Below, piece after piece: positions 3,903 through 55,140 of a stretch of DNA of 64,000 nucleotides. The position numbers and the translations under genes are program-made. How positions within the stretch are numbered: the first letter of the stretch is position 1; each line of letters starts with the position of its first letter. Source of the DNA: Litchfieldia alkalitelluris (GTDB lineage: Bacteria > Bacillota > Bacilli > Bacillales > Bacillaceae_L); the NCBI RefSeq assembly GCF_002019645.1, contig NZ_KV917374.1, positions 1,438,696 through 1,502,695 on the forward strand. The letters run 5' to 3'. The notes beneath the pieces were generated by a model. The model ran no database searches, was not told the DNA's origin, and saw only the letters and a program-made list of their open reading frames with translations.

Positions 3903-4361
3903 ATGAAAAAGTGGATACTAATGATTGTTTTTCTCTTATCAACCAGCTTTCCAACAGTATTGCAAGCAGCCGAAAAAAAAAGCTGCGATGTAATTGAAAA
4001 AGTTTTTAAGGATGCAAAAGTTGAAGGGGAAAATGGAATATGTACTGTTGAAATTGTTCGCACGAATCTTAATGTTACACATATGGGTATGAAACTATCG
4101 CCTGAAACGATGGAGCTTGTATTTCATTTCGCTCTTGAAAATGTCGGGAATGAAACAGCTGTTATGGGGGAACTTGCTTTATTAGAAGATGAAGTGAACC
4201 CAGTCATCGATCAGTTGAGAGAAGGTAATTTGGAAGTTTCCGCTATACATAACCATATGATTCATGAAAATCCCAGAATTTTTTACGTGCATTTTCAGGG
4301 AATTGGTGATTTAACTCTACAAGCTGAGATAATCAAGAAGGCTATAAACAACACAAAGTAA
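3903..4361 (+). CDS. DUF1259 (LppY/LpqO family) secreted protein
   Basis: The first 22 residues are a signal peptide (KK, hydrophobic core, LQAAE). The mature part carries the DUF1259 pattern: MGMKLSPETMELVFHF, ALLEDEVNPVIDQL, and the histidine-rich AIHNHMIHENPRIFYVHFQG. The family is named after mycobacterial LppY/LpqO; no function is established. The clustered histidines suggest metal binding, which is inference. It begins 68 bases after the preceding small gene and may share its transcript. Confidence 0.82.
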   Translation: MKKWILMIVFLLSTSFPTVLQAAEKKSCDVIEKVFKDAKVEGENGICTVEIVRTNLNVTHMGMKLSPETMELVFHFALENVGNETAVMGELALLEDEVNPVIDQLREGNLEVSAIHNHMIHENPRIFYVHFQGIGDLTLQAEIIKKAINNTK

Positions 4362-4391
4362 TAATAACGGTCCCATTCCAATATTGTGTAA

Positions 4392-4434
4392 AAAAAAAGA
4401 GGAAGTGAATCTAGGTGATCTTGATTCACTTTCT
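4392..4434 (-). terminator. Terminator for the minus-strand pair ending at 4501
   Basis: GAAGTGAATC and GATTCACTTT form the stem. Read on the minus strand the hairpin is followed by a run of nine T, so it ends transcription of the two genes at 4501-5957. Confidence 0.75.
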
Positions 4435-4500
4435 TAGGAATGTAGAAGAAACAAAGATATTTCCACTGCTGTTTTACTTATAGCTCCTGATTTTATCCGT

Positions 4501-5250
4501 CTAATAGCCGAATAATTCTTCGTCTTCTCCTATAAATCTTACAAATATAAGAGAATTTCCCCCACCACTTCCTCCCCCACCAATAGATAGTTCTGGATAG
4601 ACAATAGTCCCAGATTCATCAAGTGAACTCCACGCGAATTCAGTTGAGAGTGACGAAAAAACCCCATTATAATACATTTTCTCCATTTGAGCAGATTCTA
4701 ATTGAATCGTATCATTCAAAACCTCTACAAATTCTTGTGGTAATTTTACATACCCGTAGGGCTGTTCAGTAAGCTTTGTTGAAAATCTCATTTGTAGCCC
4801 AGGAATATAGGTTTCAACGCCATTAGAAACTGAGTAATTTCTTCGTTTTAACAATAAAAACTCTAGAGATTGTAAGTCATCCCCGGGATGTAGGTTCCAA
4901 ATAAAGTGGTAGGTTGAAGCATCCTTTGGATTTGTGCTGACTAATAAAGGAGTGCTGATTGTCCCCACATAGTGGGTGTGCCATTTGCGCTTTTCATAAT
5001 ACCAATAGCTAGCAGCATATTCCCCTTCAGTAGTGATATAAGGGACAAACACATGACTTTTATCTAAATAGATAATATCCTGAACTTTCTCGATCTTAGC
5101 ACTTAAATGATAAGGATTGACCTCATTTTTTATTTCTTCTTCGGTTAAAAAGGAACTAGGACTACTTGGATAGTACCAATAAAAGATGTAGCCAGTAATG
5201 CTTATAATAGTAAGATTTAAGAAAATTAGAATCGTTTTACGTTTAGCCAT
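4501..5250 (-). CDS. Membrane-anchored protein of unknown function
   Basis: The 249-residue protein has one N-terminal membrane segment (residues 6-26) and an extracytoplasmic-looking remainder rich in aromatic residues. Near the C-terminus is a glycine run (SIGGGGSGGG). I do not recognise a family. Its ATG overlaps the stop of the upstream gene by one base (TAATG), so the two are translationally coupled and probably act together at the membrane. Confidence 0.7.
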   Translation of the reverse strand: MAKRKTILIFLNLTIISITGYIFYWYYPSSPSSFLTEEEIKNEVNPYHLSAKIEKVQDIIYLDKSHVFVPYITTEGEYAASYWYYEKRKWHTHYVGTISTPLLVSTNPKDASTYHFIWNLHPGDDLQSLEFLLLKRRNYSVSNGVETYIPGLQMRFSTKLTEQPYGYVKLPQEFVEVLNDTIQLESAQMEKMYYNGVFSSLSTEFAWSSLDESGTIVYPELSIGGGGSGGGNSLIFVRFIGEDEELFGY

Positions 5251-5957: not shown

Positions 5958-6124
5958 GGATTCACACTCCTTTGTATGAATTTTAACATGAAAATGGAAG
6001 TTAATGGTTAGTAGGAGATTACTTGGTTAAAATATATCTAGGAGCAAGCCTATTTTTCTTGATAGCACTTGCAGTTTAGTTGCAAATTCTATACAATACA
6101 CATTATAATCTTATATTACTTATA

Positions 6125-6390
6125 AGCGTTGATAAGGAGTAGTAGTGAGTAACAATGCCTAGAGAGTTGACGGTCGGTGCAAGTCAATCATTGGTTGTTC
6201 ATGAACTCGCCTTTGAGTTGCAGGTGTGAAATACGATATTTCGTAAAATAGCGCTTGTCGTTTGGTCCGCGTTACGGATGAATGAAGCGAGTGCATTACG
6301 CAAATAAGCGTAACAACACTAATGTGGGTGGTACCGCGGGAGATTAATACATAATCCTCTCGTCCCTATTTGGGATGAGGGGTTTTTTAT
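6125..6390 (+). promoter_or_regulatory. T-box leader of leuS (leucine specific)
   Basis: The T-box sequence is seen in full at 6321-6340 (AATGTGGGTGGTACCGCGGG). The stem I region carries the usual AGAGAGTTGACGG segment, and a CTC codon in ATGAACTCGCC (about 6203) is the likely leucine specifier, as in B. subtilis leuS. A terminator follows at 6354-6389 (stem CCTC-TCGTCCC / GGGATGAGGGG plus T-run). Uncharged leucyl-tRNA should pair with the specifier and the T-box bulge and stop the terminator forming. About 200 bases separate the terminator from leuS. Confidence 0.95.
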
Positions 6391-12179: not shown

Positions 12180-12358
12180 TATAAAAAAACCAGCCCCCGA
12201 TTGGAAGCTGGTTTGGTATGTTTTAGTCAGTAAGCCGCATTTGCCGTAACTCACATAAGAAAGTTTTAAACCACCACTCCTCAAAGTGGGTGTTTGCAAT
12301 TGCAATCCTGTCGTCCTCAAGCAAATGGAGGCGTGACATTCCTGCAACAATGTAAAAC
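12180..12358 (-). ncRNA. 6S-like small RNA with own promoter and terminator
   Basis: Read on the minus strand, an extended -10 (TGTTATAGG, 12370-12361) is followed about 3 bases later by an RNA of about 175 bases ending in a terminator (AACCAGC...GCTGGTT and T7 at 12187-12213). Its two ends pair: GTTTTA/TAAAAC (12358-12353 with 12225-12220), GTCA/TGAC, GCC/GGC, and CATTTGC/GCAAATG (12327-12321 with 12244-12238). Inside lies an open bubble and a tip hairpin CACC-CACT/AGTGGTG. Size and single long stem with bubble fit 6S RNA, the RNA polymerase decoy; I cannot confirm the class. Confidence 0.5.
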
Positions 12359-12638
12359 TCCCTATAACAGCATAAAGGTTAAAACTTAATTATCATTACG
12401 AACAATGTAGCTTATGTATTTATAATACAGGAAAGAAACATGTATGACAAAGGTCAATTCCTTCCAGTGCTACCACTAATATCTGTTAGAAAAAGAACCA
12501 ATTGCTCTCTGTAGTAAAATTGCAATTAAATTGACATATTTTTGTTAAACTACACTGTTAGAATACAAATAACATACGAATAGTATATTGAAGAATTCTG
12601 TCGTAAGCTCTTCATAAACAAACTTTAGGGGGAAGAGT

Positions 12639-46433: not shown

Positions 46434-48794
46434 TTAAGCAGGAGAATCAACTTCTAAATCAGCGATGCGTTTTTCGTAGTATTGAGCATCTTTGCGTGCA
46501 TTAAAACGCTCTGCCTTTTCAATGGTAACAGTAATGTTATAGTCCGGAGTTCCCGCAAATTTATCATATCTTCCCTTTGGCAATAGGAAGTTTCCTTCAG
46601 GGAAGTGAACACCTAAATTCCCTTTAGCGATATTTGCAAATTTAGCTTTTCCTTGGAAAACCCCATAGCCATTATAAACAACTACACCTTCACCTTCAGC
46701 AATACTTAACTTATGAGCATCATCTTTACTAATGAGCACATCATAGCGCTCAGAATTGTTAAATGGATCCTTGTCTTTATAGACCATTGAGTTAAATTGC
46801 TTCCCACGACGAGTAGTAAGAACAAATTGGCCTTCTTTTTTGTGTAAGTCTGGAATATCAACAGAAATTAAGTTGCCTTTTCCGTCCGGAGTTGGGCATA
46901 CTCCATCTTCACATAACCAAGCACCACCCCACTGGAATACATCACCTTGTTTCTTTAAGTGTTGAATTCCCTCATAATCAGTGTTAGTAATGGCAATTTC
47001 ATCACGAATTTCTTGGCCTGATTTAAAATTAATTAAATGGGCTTTGTCAGGATTAACACGTTTCGCGAGATCGACATAAATTTTCCATTCTGAGCGGGCT
47101 TCCTCAATATGGTTTTTGTTTCCATCAAGTTGAGGAGAGAAATAAACCATACGTTCTGTTGATGTCGAGGTACCGCCGCCATCCTGCTCATAACGAGTCT
47201 TTGCAGGTAATACGATAACCGCCTCTTTTGCATCAAGTAATGTTGACGTATTTAATATAATATCTTGATGAACACGAATCTCTAGTTCAGATAATGCTTT
47301 TTCAATAAAATCCGGGTCTGGCATTGTTTCTAAGAAATTACCTCCAGACATGTAATAGAGCTTAATTTTGCGTTCATGATCCTCAGGAAGGACAATGTTC
47401 TCAAGCGTAACTCCAACAATGTCTCCTTGCCATCTATCTATATCAAAACCCCAGATCTTTTCCATCCGTTTAATATTCTTCTCATCAAAGCCACCACCTG
47501 GTAAAACAAATGGATCAGCCCCCATTTCCCCAGCACCTTGTACAGAAGAGTGACCACGGAATGGCATTAAACCACTGTTTCTTCGACCTAGATGTCCACG
47601 TAGTAATGCTAGATTAGCAACTTGAGAGATATTGTCTGTTGCAAAAGTATGCATTGTTAACCCTAATGCCCAAATATAAACTGCGTTTTTGCTTTTTGCT
47701 AAAAGCTCTGATAATTCGATAATTCTTTCTTTTGTAATTCCTGAAGATTTTATAATAGAATTCCAGGATTGTTTTTGCACATGACCTTTTAATTCTTTAT
47801 AATGATTCACATGTTCTTGAACGAACTCATGATTAATTGCGGAGCCGTATTTGTTTTTTTCCATATCAAACCAGTGCTTGATGATACCGTGCATGAAAGC
47901 AATATCTCCACCAATATTTACTTGATAGAAATCATCTGCCACTTTTGTTCCAAATAAAGCAGACTCTGCATTAGAAGGAATCCAATATTGATCCATTGCT
48001 GGTTCTTTGTAAGGATTCACAACAATGATTTTAGCACCGCGTTTCTTTGCTTCAAGCATGTATTTTGTTGAAACAGGAGAAGCATTTGACGCTACACTAC
48101 CAAAGAATAATAGAACATCTGCACCAAACCAATCTTGATAATTTGAAGTAGAGGCACCAACACCAATAGAACGCTTCAGAGCAGTTTTACTTGGAGCGTG
48201 GCAAATACGTGAAGCATTGTCAATATTGTTAGCTCCTAGAAAACGTGATACCTTAGCAGCTACATAATAAGATTCATTTGTAATACCTCTAGAAGTAAGG
48301 TAGAACGCATAGTTTCTTGGATTTAACTTCTTCATTTTATCAGCAATCATTGTCATTGCTTCATCCCAAGTTAAACGAGAAAATGTTCTTTCACCTTTAC
48401 GACGGATAAGTGGGTAAGGAATACGACCTAACTTTCTTAGTTCCGTACTGTCATATTTCCTTAATTCATCAATGTCAGAATGTAAGATATCTGCTTTAAT
48501 GGCAGGAGCTGTATTTAAACGTAACACATTGAATCGTGTAGTACAGGCATGTGGACCTTTAAGAGTTTGGTCATAAAGACCTGAAACGCCTAATGCACAT
48601 CCATCGCATACACCTTTTGTAAGGATTTTTCCGGCGTATGCAAGGTTATCTCTATTTTCCCATATGATTTTTCCAGTATCGCGGAAGTGTTGCGGCTTTA
48701 CTTTGCCAAGACCAAATGGAACAGGGCTCACCCAAAATTCAGGACGGATTGCTTTTGTAGCCTTAATTGGTCCTTGATGTTTTGTATCTCCCAT
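46434..48794 (-). CDS. Molybdopterin oxidoreductase, FdhF/YdeP family
   Basis: The 786-residue protein is a formate-dehydrogenase-like subunit of the FdhF/YdeP type. An N-terminal KGVCDGCALGVSG (about 60-72) may hold an Fe-S cluster, followed by ICHAPSKTALKRSIGVGAST, GSVASNASPVSTKYMLEAKKRGAKIIVVNP and the C-terminal MopB barrel (FVLTTRRGKQFNSMVYKDKDPFN). There is no Sec codon in it. Neighbours are DUF2294, an OxlT-type carrier and divergent fdhD, which supplies sulfur to the Mo cofactor. The true substrate, formate or another, is open. Confidence 0.88.
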   Translation of the reverse strand: MGDTKHQGPIKATKAIRPEFWVSPVPFGLGKVKPQHFRDTGKIIWENRDNLAYAGKILTKGVCDGCALGVSGLYDQTLKGPHACTTRFNVLRLNTAPAIKADILHSDIDELRKYDSTELRKLGRIPYPLIRRKGERTFSRLTWDEAMTMIADKMKKLNPRNYAFYLTSRGITNESYYVAAKVSRFLGANNIDNASRICHAPSKTALKRSIGVGASTSNYQDWFGADVLLFFGSVASNASPVSTKYMLEAKKRGAKIIVVNPYKEPAMDQYWIPSNAESALFGTKVADDFYQVNIGGDIAFMHGIIKHWFDMEKNKYGSAINHEFVQEHVNHYKELKGHVQKQSWNSIIKSSGITKERIIELSELLAKSKNAVYIWALGLTMHTFATDNISQVANLALLRGHLGRRNSGLMPFRGHSSVQGAGEMGADPFVLPGGGFDEKNIKRMEKIWGFDIDRWQGDIVGVTLENIVLPEDHERKIKLYYMSGGNFLETMPDPDFIEKALSELEIRVHQDIILNTSTLLDAKEAVIVLPAKTRYEQDGGGTSTSTERMVYFSPQLDGNKNHIEEARSEWKIYVDLAKRVNPDKAHLINFKSGQEIRDEIAITNTDYEGIQHLKKQGDVFQWGGAWLCEDGVCPTPDGKGNLISVDIPDLHKKEGQFVLTTRRGKQFNSMVYKDKDPFNNSERYDVLISKDDAHKLSIAEGEGVVVYNGYGVFQGKAKFANIAKGNLGVHFPEGNFLLPKGRYDKFAGTPDYNITVTIEKAERFNARKDAQYYEKRIADLEVDSPA

Positions 48795-50993: not shown

Positions 50994-51782
50994 ATGGTAA
51001 ATAAATTAAGCTTAAAACAAAAAATAGTAAAGTATACAAATGGAATACTATTAGAAACAGAGGACGAGATCGTCACTGAATTTCCACTAACAGTCTATAT
51101 AAATGGTGAGGAATTCGCTACAATGGTATGCAGTCCAACTCATTTTGAAGAGATGGTTATTGGTTTCTTAGCATCAGAGGGTGTTATTCGGTTTAAGGAT
51201 GAAATAAAAGAACTTCAAATAGATGAAGACCGTGGCTTTGCATACGTAGAATTATATACAGTTACAGTGAAAAATCAGCAATATTTTTCTAAAAGATTTA
51301 TTGGTTCCTGCTGTGGGAAAAGTAGGCAATTTTATTTTCAAAATGATGTTCAAACGGCGAAAACATCGATGTCAAAAAAAATAATAAAAGCAGAACACTG
51401 TATACGTTTAATGAATGACATGCAGGAAGCTAGTTATGTTTTTAGAAATACAGGAGGCGTGCATAATGCTGCCCTTGCAACTGAGGAAGAACTTGTGGTA
51501 TGTCGATCTGACATAGGTAGACATAATGCAATTGATAAGCTATATGGCTATTGTCTGCTTAATAGTATACCTGTTCGGGATAAGATTCTTGTCTTTAGTG
51601 GTCGAATTTCCTCGGAAATATTGACGAAAGCTGCTAAAATTGGGGTGGGAATTATTTTGTCCAAGTCAGCTCCAACAGACTTAGCGATAAAATTAGCAGA
51701 TGATTTAAATATAACCGCTGTTGGATTTATAAGAGGTTCAACGTTTAATGTCTATTCACATCCAGAACGAATTACGAAATAG
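50994..51782 (+). CDS. fdhD: Formate dehydrogenase accessory sulfurtransferase FdhD
   Basis: The 262-residue protein matches FdhD: MVCSPTHFEEMVIGFLASEG, the cysteine loop GSCCGKS near 106-112 (cysteines that pass sulfur to the Mo cofactor), FRNTGGVHNAALA, RSDIGRHNAIDKLYG and SGRISSEILTKAAKIG. GAGGTGGGATT precedes ATG 50994. It is divergent from the OxlT-type gene and near the FdhF/YdeP-type oxidoreductase, its probable client. Confidence 0.93.
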   Translation: MVNKLSLKQKIVKYTNGILLETEDEIVTEFPLTVYINGEEFATMVCSPTHFEEMVIGFLASEGVIRFKDEIKELQIDEDRGFAYVELYTVTVKNQQYFSKRFIGSCCGKSRQFYFQNDVQTAKTSMSKKIIKAEHCIRLMNDMQEASYVFRNTGGVHNAALATEEELVVCRSDIGRHNAIDKLYGYCLLNSIPVRDKILVFSGRISSEILTKAAKIGVGIILSKSAPTDLAIKLADDLNITAVGFIRGSTFNVYSHPERITK

Positions 51783-54756: not shown

Positions 54757-54783
54757 ACAAAAAAAGGAGCCAATTGGCTCCAC
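54757..54783 (-). terminator. Terminator of the HesB-like gene
   Basis: GGAGCCAATTGGCTCC (54766-54781) is a perfect 16-bp palindrome, followed on the minus strand by T7. It lies 12 bases after the HesB-like frame. Confidence 0.85.
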
Positions 54784-54793
54784 TCCCTAAGCT

Positions 54794-55072
54794 CTAGCAA
54801 CAGTTCCCAGTATTACCTAACAAAGATAGCCCCGTCTTATCCCCACTAATATCTAGTACAAGATCATCTGTATTTGGCTTTATCTTTGGGTCAATTGCAA
54901 CAACAATTTCATTAATTGTCTCGATTACATCGTCTGCTTCCGGCTCATCCAGAGCCAGTCCAATTTTTGGTGTTCCTCAGCCATATCCTGCAAAATAGAA
55001 ACGAATATTTTTAGCATTCTGTTCACGAAACATTTCTTGTAAAAGACCACGTGCTTCATCTGTAATAATCAA
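54794..55072 (-). CDS. HesB/IscA-like protein with in-frame UGA at the cysteine position (candidate selenoprotein)
   Basis: Reading TGA at 54979-54977 as one residue gives a 92-residue HesB-like protein: IITDEARGLLQEMFREQN, NIRFYFAGYG-U-GTPKIGLALDEPE, then VVAIDPKIKPNTDDLVLDI and a C-terminal GNTGNCC. The family has a conserved Cys where the TGA stands, and HesB-like selenoproteins are known in some bacteria. A hairpin 18 bases downstream fits the bacterial SECIS pattern. There is a promoter, AGGAG site, and terminator. Start is TTG 55072; ATG 55080 is out of frame by one base. If no Sec system exists, it is a pseudogene by one point mutation. Confidence 0.6.
54940..54958 (-). promoter_or_regulatory. 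Candidate bacterial SECIS hairpin
   Basis: On the minus strand CTGGCTC-TGGAT-GAGCCGG forms a 7-bp stem (one T-G) with a 5-base loop whose second base is G. The stem starts 18 bases and the loop 25 bases after the TGA, inside the 16-37 base range described for bacterial SECIS loops. Confidence 0.55.
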
Positions 55073-55110
55073 TTCATTTTCACTCCTCAATTAATTAATC
55101 TATCTTATTG

Positions 55111-55140
55111 ATTTTACCTGTATTAATGAGAAATTTTCAA
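55111..55140 (-). promoter_or_regulatory. Sigma-A type promoter of the HesB-like gene
   Basis: TTGAAA (55140-55135), 18-base spacer, TAAAAT (55116-55111) on the minus strand, 39 bases before TTG 55072. Confidence 0.55.

Follow-up and report, generated by a model that had tools for sequence, protein, structure and literature searches.

The window analysed here is a 64,000-nucleotide stretch of the Litchfieldia alkalitelluris genome (RefSeq assembly GCF_002019645.1, contig NZ_KV917374.1). The initial annotation had reported a HesB/IscA-like frame on its minus strand, interrupted once by TGA at codon 32 at the place where homologs carry cysteine, and a hairpin with a 7-bp stem and a 5-base loop (CTGGCTC TGGAT GAGCCGG, 54958 to 54940) beginning 18 bases past that TGA; both were confirmed. 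The encoded protein, read with selenocysteine (Sec, U) at the TGA, is LIITDEARGLLQEMFREQNAKNIRFYFAGYG-U-GTPKIGLALDEP...GNTGNCC, and codon 32 is its sole internal stop. The features of the locus are as follows.

54794 to 55072, minus strand: predicted HesB/IscA-like selenoprotein gene, TTG start, TAG stop, 92 residues, Sec at position 32
54977 to 54979, minus strand: in-frame TGA, the putative Sec codon 32; among the 51 homologous genes read, 42 (the window gene included) have TGA and 9 a Cys codon here
54940 to 54958, minus strand: SECIS-like hairpin, 7-bp stem, loop UGGAU
54980 to 54982, minus strand: Gly codon GGC just before the TGA
54797 to 54802, minus strand: C-terminal Cys91-Cys92, each conserved in 90% or more of the 48 proteins aligned
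55083 to 55088, minus strand: ribosome-binding-like GAGGAG, read from the sequence, 10 bases upstream of the TTG
55111 to 55140, minus strand: promoter-like TTGAAA-18-TAAAAT, near chance level
54766 to 54781, minus strand: intrinsic-terminator-like stem-loop GGAGCCAATTGGCTCC, then T7 (TTTTTTT)

The promoter, ribosome site and terminator ascribed to the gene could all be located (GAGGAG at 55088 to 55083), but the promoter-like sites were close in number to chance (4 found against 2.9 expected, sd 1.4), and the terminator-like sites were less near it (1 found against 0.2 expected). A TAAAAT upstream was also seen in L033, L034, L035, and L037. An out-of-frame ATG had been placed at 55080 and taken as mild support for a dead gene. 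It lies at 55077 and opens merely ATG-AAT-TGA, and the start codons of six close relatives (TTG, GTG or ATG) align with TTG 55072, so the ATG is no argument against the gene and was rejected as a sign of decay. The surroundings of the window gene contain no ars operon; its nearest named neighbors are GNAT acetyltransferase genes and an opposite-strand DUF2325 gene.

A Sec reading called for the corresponding machinery elsewhere in the genome (5.43 Mb in 2 contigs), and selA, selB, selD, and a tRNA-Sec gene were all found. In the profile search of the genome, selA scored 552 bits (1.3e-165, above cut-off) and selB 363.8 bits, the latter reaching 364.2 bits by NCBIfam against a cut-off of 242.25, while the tRNA-Sec, with anticodon TCA, scored 57.8 bits against a cut-off of 47. 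Among 14 control genomes, the number above cut-off was 1 for selA, 2 for selB, 2 for selD, and 5 for tRNA-Sec. The selA, selB, and tRNA-Sec genes lie together within about 4.2 kb, whereas selD (425.6 bits) is located elsewhere and bears an in-frame TGA of its own, in SSKGGUGCKIG, which makes it probable that two or more selenoprotein genes are present here. The selD gene occupies positions 4023 to 5081 of locus L041, where a NifS-like aminotransferase gene and a phosphonate-type ABC transporter were noticed by eye close by.

When the gene was compared with those of close relatives, in which TGC or TGT at this codon would have spoken for a lost cysteine, the closest were found to keep the TGA: copies with TGA occur in 3 of 3 genomes of the genus and in 6 of 17 of the family, our own genome counted in both. 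The six TGA-bearing relatives share 56-82% protein identity with the window protein; one of them, the copy of Aquibacillus salsiterrae (L018), stands at 67% in a genome with both selA and selB. The genome-contig scan returned one locus. Other family members showed different forms of the gene. Three genomes (G009, G010, and G013) have Cys forms with the motif GCCGP, and eight contain one copy each (L025 to L032), a HesB paralog with neither Sec nor Cys at position 32, without the C-terminal Cys pair, and with the ending GPGSYS; in the family genomes G006 and G016, there was no match for a HesB-like gene. The Cys-less copies L042 and L043 are both followed by one and the same small gene.

The hairpin was examined at the levels of folding, codon constraint, and covariation. 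The 48-base segment that begins with the TGA has a folding energy of -13.7 kcal/mol (z = -3.41), a stability that none of 200 shuffles attained. In seven close species, codons 40-43 (GCT CTG GAT GAG) are identical in every base in 7 of 7, and 4 of the 5 hairpin codons are invariant against 2 of the 22 other codons whose amino acid is invariant (p = 0.004). Across the whole gene, pS ranges from 0.51 to 0.72 for 20 of the 21 species pairs; the closely related L036 and L037 differ by 0.22. The seven-species hairpin alignment held no double change, and it was therefore widened to 42 TGA genes (41 distinct). Here, 94.1% of the stem cells are paired, both partners differ in 20 cells, and covariation scores 0.266; none of 500 shuffles matched the pairing, the number of double-changed cells or the score. 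Shuffles did reach two weaker measures: 54 of 500 equalled the count of doubly changed pairs (3), and 124 of 500 that of additional pair types. When the partner strand was slid along, pairing dropped to at most 51% and the covariation score to at most 0.074. The changes observed in the stem include G-C to U-G and U-A to G-C, and a single lineage (L063, L066 to L073) contributes a large part of the 20 double-changed cells. Folded singly, 38 of the 42 sequences form the upper three pairs of the stem, and all seven form in 23. A chance hairpin was rejected on the shuffle fold test and on the covariation.

The glycine codon just before the TGA is GGC in each of the 42 Sec genes read from the order. 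In 14 Cys forms it is GGC (5), GGT (4), GGA (3) or GGG (2), in a pattern search that missed one further Cys form, L172; in TGA copies from other classes it is GGC, GGT, and once GGA. Between the window gene and its six relatives, dN/dS over the whole gene is 0.08-0.23, and downstream of the TGA it is 0.06-0.22 in 8 comparisons, which indicates purifying selection, the values being rough because silent sites are near saturation.

Beyond the family, the TGA copies follow the Sec machinery. The initial annotation had considered selenoproteins rare in Bacillaceae, a view at odds with the presence of selA in every one of the 17 family genomes and, within the order, in 180 of 396, the latter being a sample drawn from a larger group; HesB profile matches at E <= 1e-6 were found in 201 of the same 396. 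Sec use is thus common in the order, apparently a new observation; a 2006 survey counted a total of three selenoproteins for Bacillales (PMC1794560). The best 150 matches in the 396 genomes comprise 100 genes with one TGA and 50 open ones, the position of the TGA having been read in those loci alone that were retrieved. Among these 150, selA is present in 88 of the 89 genomes with a TGA copy against 9 of the 45 with open copies alone (p = 5e-23), a value that overstates the tie because the genomes are related, and in a comparison where some genomes classed as open-only may carry a TGA copy that ranks below the best 150.

The sole exception of the 89, G386, carries a TGA copy with hairpin (L139) beside arsR, arsB, and arsC, and a search of this genome found no selA and neither selB nor tRNA-Sec above cut-off. 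Since selA, selB, and tRNA-Sec adjoin in our genome (G000), a single assembly gap could hide all three; the sel genes of G386 may be hidden in this way, or the trait may have been lost. In other classes of the phylum, a search with TIGR01911 as the query, which may favor Sec copies, returned 12 further TGA copies among 13, several with a similar hairpin. As 12 of these 13 copies are of the Sec form, replacement of Sec by Cys is the likelier direction of change.

Taken together, the Sec machinery, the conserved TGA, the tie to selA, the covarying hairpin, and the purifying selection argue with high confidence that the gene at 54794-55072 is a working selenoprotein gene with Sec at codon 32, and an apparent pseudogene would thereby become a functional one. 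Judged by the promoter-like and terminator-like sites that flank it, the intact gene would be transcribed singly, and SelB with Sec-tRNA would read UGA codon 32 under the guidance of the hairpin 18 bases downstream, as conservation and co-occurrence suggest. The alternative raised in the initial annotation, a single TGY-to-TGA mutation that turned the gene into a pseudogene, agrees with the standard table, by which the frame stops after 31 codons, and with the TGA copy in G386, where no Sec machinery was found. It fits poorly with the six relatives, 56-82% identical, that have TGA at this very codon, with the TGA copies in all 3 genomes of the genus and 6 of the 17 of the family, and with a hairpin that is conserved and covaries in 42 genes, purifying selection downstream of the TGA, and Sec machinery in the same genome, and we rejected it as highly improbable. 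Decoding of the UGA as Trp or Cys by a near-cognate tRNA or plain read-through is just as improbable, given the presence of selA in 88 of 89 TGA genomes among the best 150 matches, the covarying hairpin, and the Cys of homologs at the same site.

With respect to family assignment, the protein resembles a known kind of selenoprotein without reaching the curated models for it. HesB-like selenoproteins are known from some bacteria, as the initial annotation had stated: the 2006 survey lists them in Deltaproteobacteria, Clostridia, and others (PMC1794560), and a 2016 study counts them in 86 organisms (PMC5029168). For Methanococcus maripaludis, mutagenesis and 75Se labelling reportedly revealed a HesB-like selenoprotein; its function is called not clear, and a disruption mutant showed unimpaired nitrogen fixation (PMC11097638). 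Like the proteins described in PMC1794560 and modelled by TIGR01911, the window protein has a HesB/IscA-type domain with Sec at the first conserved Cys, a coding-region hairpin just after the UGA, and Sec machinery in the genome. In contrast, it scores 45.1 bits (1.2e-11) with NCBIfam TIGR01911 (HesB_rel_seleno), under the cut-off of 66.35, and 39.1 bits (7e-10) with NF038090 (IscA_HesB_Se), under the cut-off of 85, and it has UGTP instead of the UxGP motif given in a 2026 review (PMC13188914). Pfam PF01521 likewise remains under its cut-off (19.3 bits against 26.3).

All 48 aligned relatives match both TIGR01911 and NF038090 at E <= 0.001, and UGGP is the motif in 14 of the 42 Sec relatives read, while none of 398 genomes of the phylum passes the TIGR01911 cut-off, though the control Methanocaldococcus jannaschii does. 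Because the scores lie under the curated cut-offs, we call the product a HesB-like selenoprotein in the broad sense and not a member of the curated models; the predicted Sec-HesB set below NCBI's curated cut-offs is apparently new.

The AlphaFold2 model, built from 48 aligned sequences, has a mean pLDDT of 88.7, but of about 50 at residues 91-92. Its best PDB match is E. coli IscA (TM 0.77-0.78, 19% identity), followed by IscA with a [2Fe-2S] cluster and then by DsrR and SufA. The window protein is thus alike to the A-type Fe-S carriers IscA, SufA, and ErpA in predicted fold (TM 0.78 to 1s98) and in weak NCBIfam matches to TIGR00049 and ErpA, and differs from them in its 19% identity to IscA, in Sec for the first Cys, and in its CC end; the A-type carriers have a C-G-C tail. 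The Sec32 position is presumably that of the first ligand cysteine of these carriers and, with Cys91-Cys92 at the C-terminus, the three residues probably make up a single site for a metal, a metalloid or redox chemistry, in which Sec would act as a more reactive ligand.

The gene neighborhoods of the relatives point to arsenic. In two family genomes with a TGA copy (G003 and G005) and in the three with the Cys form (G009, G010, and G013), the gene directly follows arsR-arsB-arsC-arsD-arsA-phosphatase; for L036, NCBIfam and Pfam identified the genes of this ars operon. Flanks were read at 70 loci, and an ars operon was scored where two or more of arsB, arsC, and arsA occurred within 6 kb. This rule is satisfied by 17 of the 56 Sec loci and all 14 Cys loci, and 39 of the 56 Sec loci, the window included, have no ars operon by it. 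The flanks cover 55 of the 100 TGA matches plus L018 and 14 of the 50 open ones, picked by hand and mostly better-scoring, so these shares are no even sample; the 51 homologous genes read were picked in the same manner. Locus L126, with arsR, another transporter, and arsC, fails the 6-kb rule and stands outside the 17, and the Cys-less copies L042 and L043 and the locus L044 are outside the ars counts; among the families that L042 and L043 share with other loci, there were no ars genes. Of the 14 genomes behind these Cys loci, 11 lack selA, and three (G009, G010, and G013) have it.

In a midpoint-rooted tree of 87 proteins, built from few columns and with many forks unresolved, the window copy falls in an all-Sec set of 12 (100/97) that also holds the ars-operon copies L118, L121, and L122. 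Another set (100/96) unites 13 of the 14 Cys copies with four Cys-less ones, and the ars-linked Sec copies are spread over several branches. L172 (G173), a Sec-type HesB sequence with Cys at the Sec place (GCGAP), stands apart from the main Cys set.

A similar arrangement is known from Bacillus sp. CDB3, whose ars1 operon arsRYCDATorf7orf8 includes a HesB-like protein as orf7, according to two papers (PMC4562236, PMC5481582). By gene description, orf7 is likened to L036, L114, L115, and L167, in which a HesB-like gene lies beside ars and dual-specificity phosphatase genes; orf7 belongs to an ars operon, whereas the window gene lies outside any. No word beginning with 'selen' occurs in either paper. 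In the searched literature, available to us in part, we met no description of a Sec HesB within an ars operon, although one may already be in print; the linkage of Sec and Cys HesB copies to ars operons (17 of 56 and 14 of 14 examined) is reported as apparently new, and it makes one idea on the function of HesB-like selenoproteins testable.

As many Sec copies and every Cys copy with flanks read lie in ars operons, the most likely role is one in arsenite handling or stress. The protein would help to handle arsenite or, under stress from metalloids or oxidants, would keep Fe-S and thiol sites intact or mend them, a proposal drawn from the gene neighbors of relatives and the fold, and one that we hold tentatively, at a little under even confidence. 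A different role for the selenoprotein, in general Fe-S carriage or thiol redox, with ars operons having recruited the gene later or for stress repair only, is a serious though somewhat doubtful possibility. It is consistent with the predicted IscA fold, with the 39 of 56 Sec loci, the window among them, that have no ars operon by the 6-kb rule, and with the predominance of Sec in other classes (12 of 13 copies, their flanks lying outside the survey). The presence of all 14 Cys copies with flanks in ars operons argues against it, as do the ars-linked Sec copies in several branches of the tree, many of whose forks are unresolved.

A more specific version of the arsenite role would make the Sec-HesB of the order a selenium-based As(III)-handling protein, with Sec32 and Cys91-Cys92 as a three-ligand site resembling those of ArsD and ArsA, occurring both in ars operons and as a stand-alone gene such as that of the window, and with Sec replaced by Cys mostly where the Sec machinery is missing (selA is lacking in 11 of the 14 Cys-copy genomes). 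We consider this version rather unlikely.

Elsewhere in the window (46434-48794 and 50994-51782), an FdhF/YdeP-family oxidoreductase gene has an open frame without TGA and, judged by eye, what we take to be Cys at the usual Sec place of this family, with fdhD nearby. At gathering scores, Rfam matched the window only at a T-box leader (6120-6370) and a 6S RNA (12228-12416).
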